Source: Bacillota bacterium
GTDB lineage: Bacteria > Bacillota_A > Clostridia > Peptostreptococcales > Anaerovoracaceae
Assembly (NCBI GenBank): GCA_017438085.1
Contig: JAFRWH010000013.1
Span: 1 to 7,821 of the forward strand
Direction of reading: 5' to 3'
DNA length: 7,821 bases
The notes beneath the pieces are model-generated. The model saw only the letters and a list, made by a program, of their open reading frames with translations. It did no database searches and had not been told where the DNA came from. Position 1 is the first letter of the stretch, and each line of letters starts with the position of its first letter. The position numbers and the translations under genes are program-made. Shown in pieces: positions 1,284 to 1,632 of the stretch.

Positions 1284-1632
1284 GGTGGAAAATCTTTTGT
1301 TCGCGAATAATTTTTTATTTTCAAAAAACGGGAATAAGGCAGCTGACAGCGTATCTGAGAAAAGTTTTCCACAGCTTGTCCACATGGGATATTTTAAGCT
1401 TTTCCGGCAGTTTTGCACTCCTGTTTCGGAGCTTATTCACCGGAAAATCCACAGCTGATTGTGGAAAAGTTAAAAGCCCCGGAATGCCTGAAAACAAAGG
1501 GCTTTCACGACTATGTGCAATTGTCAACAGCAAAGTTTTCCACAGACAGGACCCCTTTTTCCGCAGGATTATGTAAATCCCTTTAAAACATCAGCATCCG
1601 GGCATTTTTTGATATTTTTCCACAGTGGAAAA
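1284..1632. other. Cluster of DnaA-box-like 9-mers: candidate replication origin or DnaA-titration site
   Basis: This part of the 711-bp gene-free gap is crowded with sites resembling the DnaA box (consensus TTATNCACA). Exact TTTTCCACA occurs at 1365-1373 (+), 1460-1468 (-), 1536-1544 (+) and 1616-1624 (+). TTGTCCACA, the form typical of actinobacterial origins, is at 1376-1384 (+). One- or two-mismatch sites are TTATTCACC 1433-1441 (+), AAATCCACA 1445-1453 (+), TTTTCCGCA 1557-1565 (+), TTTTCCACC 1284-1292 (-) and TTTTCCACT 1624-1632 (-). The 14-mer AAAGTTTTCCACAG occurs twice (1361-1374 and 1532-1545). A/T tracts lie on both sides. A given 9-mer should occur about 0.005 times by chance in a region this size counting both strands, so four exact copies are not random. 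No dnaA, dnaN, rpmH or parAB is in view. The site could therefore be oriC detached from dnaA, a DnaA reservoir, or a DnaA-controlled locus. Confidence 0.7.
1306..1328. other. A/T tract left of the DnaA-box cluster
   Basis: Twenty-two of 23 bases are A or T (one C at 1322). The tract lies between the leftmost weak box (1284-1292) and the first strong one (1365-1373). It could assist strand opening or simply be intergenic low-complexity sequence. Confidence 0.4.

Follow-up and report, generated by a model that had tools for sequence, protein, structure and literature searches.

What is a dense array of putative DnaA boxes doing between a gene for an SLH-CAP protein and one for an acyltransferase? 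The array lies in a 7,821-nt stretch of DNA (the window), and a first-pass annotation had read it as either an origin of replication apart from dnaA or an extra-origin control locus. Its setting was confirmed: 711 bp (positions 1167 to 1877) are free of genes, from the stop of the SLH-CAP ORF at 1166 to the start of the acyltransferase ORF at 1878. Pfam assigned both neighbors, and the genes on the two sides of the array run in the same direction. A consensus scan of the window found the four exact copies of TTTTCCACA and the single TTGTCCACA that had been annotated, all inside 260 bp (1365 to 1624). Two of the TTTTCCACA boxes delimit a core, with an inverted left box on the minus strand at 1460-1468 and a right box on the plus strand at 1536-1544, 76 bp from the left one. 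Upstream, at position -95 of the core, stands a plus-strand TTTTCCACA (1365-1373), with the plus-strand variant TTGTCCACA at 1376-1384. Downstream, the fourth TTTTCCACA, on the plus strand at 1616, overlaps a minus-strand TTTTCCACT at 1624, forming two opposed boxes over 1616-1632. Within one mismatch of TTWTCCACA, the region from 1284 to 1632 adds only three sites to these five boxes, at 1284 (minus), 1557 (plus; the variant TTTTCCGCA, 1557-1565), and 1624 (minus). To reach the annotated "at least five close variants," the consensus has to be relaxed so that it admits, for example, the weak plus-strand boxes TTTTGCACT at 1411-1419 (exactly -49) and AAATCCACA at 1445-1453 (exactly -15). The description of the boxes as mostly in one orientation is roughly right, with five of the eight sites within one mismatch on the plus strand and three on the minus strand; in the conserved core, the two boxes are inverted relative to each other.

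The array is indeed far denser than chance, as had been claimed. The whole window holds 12 one-mismatch sites, against a mean of 2.81 and a largest count of 9 in 200 shuffles. Five TTNTCCACA fall within 260 bp; this count never exceeded 2 when the whole window was shuffled 3,000 times or the gap alone 20,000 times. The gap also contains a near-palindrome, TTGTTCGCGAATAA (1297-1310, from a repeat scan), and, between the SLH-CAP gene and the array, a weak plus-strand hairpin with a T-rich tail that resembles an intrinsic terminator (1225-1258; 1 versus 0.9 in shuffles). On the 3′ side of the array is a 13-nt inverted pair, TGTCAAGAG at 1748-1760 and its complement CTCTTGACA at 1812-1824.

The nearest locus we found, L001 (JAEEPD010000214.1, a Bacillota MAG, isolate Tb.RUG.302), has a SufB-like protein 91% identical to that of the window and carries its array at the corresponding position, flanked by genes for an acyltransferase and an SLH protein. 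All 45 positions of the five boxes are identical between the two, compared with 128 of 221 in the rest of the array; the flanks agree at 89 of 170 positions on the left and 127 of 245 on the right. The boxes have been conserved while the sequence around them has diverged. Identity is 9/9 for the box at 1365 and for the variant at 1376, 16/17 for the two opposed boxes, 8/9 for AAATCCACA, 6/9 for TTTTGCACT, and 9/10 for the plus-strand motif TTGTCAACAG beside the right box (1521-1530). The letters of the first inverted-pair copy (TGTCAAGAG, 1748-1760) are present in L001 too. Read by eye, TTGTTCGCGAA-type letters also adjoin the first box in sister loci L289-L293.

Is the arrangement shared more widely? 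We searched the GTDB family of the relative genome nearest to the window (the family). A pattern for the window-type array, with one mismatch allowed, matched 12 of 296 family genomes; most of these matches have inverted boxes 75-77 bp apart together with outer boxes, and L094 and L103 deviate. The recurrent unit is a composite element. At its core, a pair of inverted DnaA boxes is separated by 73-77 bp and encloses a TTGAAATTTCAA-type dyad at the center, with TGTCAA next to the right box; further boxes stand upstream of the core at fixed offsets. In the window, the core spans 85 bp on the plus strand, from the left inverted box to the right box (1460-1544). We aligned 48 elements, drawn from 95 pattern rows in which both orientations and duplicate loci were counted; the rows retained had a GTCAA- or GTTCAA-type motif before the right box and a length below 90, with one row per locus. 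The box pair and the right-box motif are therefore partly conserved by construction, and because many of the 48 are close relatives, the elements cannot be counted as independent occurrences.

Neither the dyad nor the boxes at -93, -49, and -15 entered the selection, and the box-pair gap was left free over 31 values (52-82) in the spaced-pair search. The 48 oriented elements have total lengths of 82 (27 elements), 85 (9), 84 (7), 83 (4), and 86 (1). Among the 39 elements outside the window type, an exact TTWTCCACA stands at -49 or -48 in 38, a box within one mismatch stands at -91 to -94 in 33, and one stands at -15 in 28. Seven of the nine window-type elements have an exact box at -92 to -95. 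Element flanks carry 8.2 one-mismatch sites per kb, compared with 0.47 in 449 kb of background. The order of the boxes is fixed and conserved across these relatives, as is their spacing.

Inside the element, TGTCAACAG-type letters precede the right box, and the TCAA of the right-box motif is invariant in a 38-sequence alignment, the motif having been a selection criterion too. The alignments place the dyad of the window at 1486-1502, where it is degenerate (GCCTGAAAACAAAGGGC); in the best relatives it reads CGTTGAAATTTCAACG. Because its dyad is degenerate, the window copy may have drifted or may rely on the boxes alone. In the majority type (L136-L165 and L218-L256), a GTATAC-centered motif, TCGTATACAAT / ATTGTATACAAT, lies about 28 to 15 bp before the left box and precedes the -15 box; it is absent from the nine window-type rows compared.

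Since the two boxes of the core are inverted, they could be imagined as the terminal stem of a structured RNA, and RNAalifold does pair six outer columns. However, two-sided change occurs in none of the six predicted pairs, and 23 of the 48 elements have a mispair at the variable W of the boxes (A/A in 22, T/T in 1). No Rfam family matches the window or any of 12 related loci. We give the RNA reading hardly any credence.

When only the spaced inverted pair was sought, 235 of the 349 genomes of the family had it, and 9 had a reversed control pattern (control counted by eye); the 235 include pairs other than the element, for example one at the dnaA locus of G234. We used two models, the sequence-only R1, from 38 of the 48 elements, and R2, from 29 sequences without the window lineage. 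R1 matched 300 of 349 family genomes at E ≤ 0.01, 227 at 1e-4, 179 at 1e-6, and 148 at 1e-8, counts that include genomes that supplied training sequences; 49 of the 349 had no match at E ≤ 0.01, and 170 had none at 1e-6. In a class sample of 291 genomes, R1 matched 59 at 0.01, many of them partially, 9 at 1e-4, six of which belong to the family, and 4 at 1e-6, every one from the family. The spaced pair was present in 113 of 247 genomes of an order sample that includes family members and in 5 of 50 outgroup genomes, none of which had the interior motif (by eye). Ten spaced pairs from outside the family scored at most 15.7 bits with R2. These exact counts are weakened by the incompleteness of MAGs, the motif-based choice of training rows, and E-values from a shortened calibration. 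Among the matches listed outside the family but in the same order, G527:C82, G537:C100, and G549:C10 have inverted pairs of 83-84 bp with a similar central motif by eye, so the element may predate the family. Four genomes (G056, G130, G339, and G075) have five spaced box pairs each, versus one or two elsewhere.

R2 recovered all 14 held-out loci, with a best E of 3.8e-12. The window scored 26.9 bits (E = 2.8e-7) and the weakest locus, L091, 17.2 bits (E = 2.9e-4). As a control for boxes alone, we scored 80 viral stretches that had been chosen for carrying a spaced box pair; their maxima were 22.2 bits with R2 and 26.6 bits with R1. Thirteen of the 14 held-out loci (at least 24.4 bits) lie above the viral maximum of 22.2, the window only modestly so, and L091 falls inside the control range. 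With R1, the window reached 50.3 bits, but it belongs to the R1 training set. The same scores bear on whether the array is a remnant or cargo of a mobile element, as could be suspected from a gene context unlike that of most relatives sampled and from the bare spaced pair, which matches at least 120 viral stretches. Against this, the preselected viral stretches stay below the window with both models, and there is no transposase or integrase among the seven window proteins scanned with Pfam. A mobile origin is thus extremely improbable. Viral carriage was dropped as a candidate, since the viral stretches contain bare box pairs only.

Does the element belong to a particular gene? In 38 of 51 loci, the upstream neighbors form one protein cluster. 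The members of this upstream cluster (L195 and L218-L256) are proteins of about 400-450 aa, and the one member scanned had no Pfam match. The downstream neighbor falls in an AlaX cluster in 31 of 51 loci, at 23-116 bp from the right box; one more AlaX is upstream in L228, and AlaX is also downstream of the element in G003 and G009. Pfam supports the AlaX identity for the one member scanned. Unlike most relatives, the window and L001 have the element between SLH and acyltransferase genes, and G037 and G201 differ again; in G037, the neighbors are what we take to be SecA and PEP carboxykinase. A gene that is presumably RluB lies near some copies. Because the contexts of the window, L001, G037, and G201 differ, the element is not tied to any one neighbor.

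This bears on a further explanation, in which DnaA acts here as a transcription factor and the locus controls its neighboring gene, which ancestrally would have been the alanyl-tRNA editing gene AlaX on the downstream side of the right box. The recurrence of AlaX directly downstream in 31 loci and of a single upstream cluster in 38 fits such a role, and for B. subtilis, a passage in PMC4447404 describes DnaA acting as a transcription factor in some regions. However, the boxes and their spacing persist where the neighbors differ, and, read on its TTGACA-like strand, the TGTCAA motif faces away from the gene downstream. We consider control of a neighboring gene unlikely. TTGACA was also tried as a promoter and dropped: between 1100 and 1950, there are two weak promoter-like matches versus 1.4 in shuffles, and neither lies inside the array.

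Is the array an origin? In the relatives, dnaA is on another contig or far from the element, mostly with boxes of its own; L088, a partial dnaA locus, has none. A DnaA C-terminal domain was not found in G001, the relative genome nearest to the window. G288 has two matches to this domain (G288:C24 and G288:C18), from either a duplicate dnaA or contamination. The first-pass annotation had proposed a GC-skew check, which we ran on relatives; in the three where skew could be read, the switch coincides with dnaA rather than with the element. In G037, skew and gene strand both change over there, and the 20 kb around the element keep a skew of +0.07 to +0.12. In the single-contig genomes G261 and G266, both again change over at dnaA, and the skew around the element is positive (20 stretches of 20 kb each); at the G261 element, one 4-kb bin 7 kb away has a skew of -0.03 among nine positive bins. 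Skew was too weak to place a switch in G124, in G055, and in the short dnaA contig of G003. The element lies 414 kb from dnaA in G261 and 459 kb in G266, within one replichore, and R1 at E ≤ 0.1 matched the element alone over those 800 kb.

Distances to dnaA, taken the short way round with contigs assumed to be circular, are 285 kb in G234, 438 kb in G201, 482 kb in G103, 703 kb in G167, and 1,295 kb in G079. The seven single-contig genomes thus span 285-1,295 kb, or 0.09 to 0.47 of the chromosome, and the distance is not constant; this range leaves out G096 (281 kb, 20.7 bits with R1), G171 (319 kb, 15.6 bits, partial), a second G201 site (886 kb, 26.6 bits), and G198 (1,215 kb, spaced pair only). 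A fixed distance to dnaA was accordingly dropped as a property of the element. So was a fixed orientation to the replication fork, since the sign of the skew in the frame of the element varies among loci.

The chromosomal partitioning site parS is a TGTTTCACGTGAAACA-type 16-mer. Exact parS lies 9-18 kb from dnaA in five genomes (G124, G055, G037, G261, and G266). Within two mismatches, there is no parS in the elements; one two-mismatch match is about 19 kb from the G266 element. We also looked for TAG-type DnaA-trios, with the consensus as given in a part of PMC7561715. They occur at 10 of 25 dnaA loci and are absent from the window gap, where the sole regex match is an A tract; because just 10 of the 25 dnaA loci have such trios, a missing match alone is not decisive.

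Several features would suit a chromosomal origin, main or second, lying apart from dnaA in the organism of the window: the dense boxes, an A+T-rich stretch at 1603-1665 (the richest 60 bp, starting at 1603-1606, are 82% A+T), and the occurrence of the same dyad at dnaA in some relatives. But in G261, G266, and G037 the skew switch coincides with dnaA and the element has none, five relatives have exact parS close to dnaA and every element lacks it, the gap has no TAG-type trio, and the flanking genes are codirectional. Judging from the relatives, the window array is probably not oriC, and we rate an origin of either kind as very improbable. Of the two options that the first-pass annotation had left standing, the origin is not supported in relatives, judged by skew, gene strand, and parS, and the candidate control locus outside the origin fits the observations.

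What might the dyad be for? GTTGAAATTTCAAC occurs 11 times in 1.57 Mb of the stretches examined, every time inside an element. Its 12-bp core, TTGAAATTTCAA, is also found perfectly beside dnaA in G007, G005, and G227. Within two mismatches, TTGAAATTTCAA is present at 12 of 25 dnaA loci, with 15 matches where 40 shuffles averaged 4.5 and reached at most 12; in this count, L085 and L170 were oriented by an antisense ORF (upstream and downstream swapped), L173 and L177 come from the same genome, and the dyad-bearing G005, G006, G007, and G010 are similar genomes by their SufB match. The enrichment at dnaA loci is present but uneven. At those loci, a TTWTCAAC-type site follows the dyad, as TTGTCAACAG does in the element, and in some relatives both lie between dnaA and dnaN. 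G003 and G009 have an inverted box pair 74 bp apart between dnaA and dnaN (L092, 493-575, and L084, 1787-1869), which scores 17.8 bits with R1 in G003. This pair may be the counterpart of the element at the origin.

A palindrome of 14-16 bp confined to the element in the stretches examined, at a locus away from the origin, could also mark a site of chromosome organization or segregation, where the dyad would recruit an SMC- or ParB-like factor and the DnaA boxes would be auxiliary. However, the palindrome is not parS, canonical parS is near dnaA, and phased DnaA boxes dominate the element. We regard a segregation site as improbable.

We favor, with reasonable but far from full confidence, an extra-origin DnaA-binding control locus common to about half or more of the sampled family genomes. 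The element is conserved, its boxes keep a fixed order and spacing, and it lies away from the origin in relatives; from this we infer that DnaA binds the locus, that a partner occupies the dyad, and that together they control the availability of DnaA. In the mechanism we propose, DnaA would bind the phased boxes, and a putative partner protein would bind the central dyad and shape the DNA. The inverted boxes, about seven helical turns apart, could thereby join one DnaA complex. Each replication fork would double the locus, and the complex would then lower the amount of free or ATP-bound DnaA, helping to prevent reinitiation in the manner of datA or the B. subtilis DnaA-box clusters. We favor this negative role over DARS-like activation; the present observations fit both. 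As a more speculative possibility, the element might be a dedicated DnaA-switch locus, where DnaA and a putative dyad-binding protein, acting here and at oriC as IHF does at oriC and datA, would interconvert or trap DnaA.

If this switch reading is true, Bacillota would have an organized control of the datA/DARS type, of which the passages of the reviews at hand report none in this phylum; a section of PMC13220808 (2026) states that the datA and DARS loci are absent in B. subtilis and that the regulators of the DnaA-ATP/ADP balance there are still unknown. The element is undescribed in the open-license literature searched, in which filtering was weak, since the term datA also matches "data." A phase-locked element shared by members of a clostridial family offers a precisely defined sequence for deletion, footprinting, and use as bait. 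Its dyad, found also at dnaA in some relatives, could lead to a new initiation protein in gut and rumen bacteria.

How does the element compare with known systems? An extra-origin cluster is recognized by boxes denser than chance and away from oriC; we found the density in the window and the distance from dnaA in relatives. The bipartite oriC of clostridia, as outlined in part of PMC7561715, uses the same box type, and some relatives have the dyad and the TTWTCAAC-type site at dnaA-dnaN. In contrast, the element is without a TAG-type trio, is distant from dnaA in relatives, and coincides with no skew switch wherever the skew can be read. The DnaA-box clusters of B. subtilis, compared by description and not by their sequences, are likewise non-origin clusters in Bacillota, and the loss of six of them leads to early initiation (Okumura et al. 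2012, as cited in passages of PMC5295017 and PMC13220808).

DARS1 and DARS2 of E. coli, in the account given in a portion of PMC4585315, are extra-origin loci with a compact box core at conserved spacing, and DARS2 needs IHF and Fis sites. Set beside them by description, the element is also extra-origin, with a compact core and conserved spacing, but its layout differs. The same portion of PMC4585315 reports that datA and DARS keep a conserved relative distance from oriC, whereas the distance between element and dnaA varies; these genomes span a family, and the E. coli rule concerns one species. datA itself is described, in parts of PMC4585315 and PMC5295017, as an extra-origin noncoding cluster of five DnaA boxes, and the former adds that it needs two boxes with an IHF site between them at a set spacing. 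The element belongs to another phylum (the nearest relatives of the window are Bacillota MAGs), has another box layout, and has a dyad in place of the IHF site; IHF is absent in B. subtilis, according to a passage of the 2026 review. Between its inverted boxes, at conserved spacing, the element has a dyad, degenerate in the window, where a putative protein may play the part of IHF at datA. By this analogy, datA would be the closest functional parallel to an inverted box pair with a central dyad.
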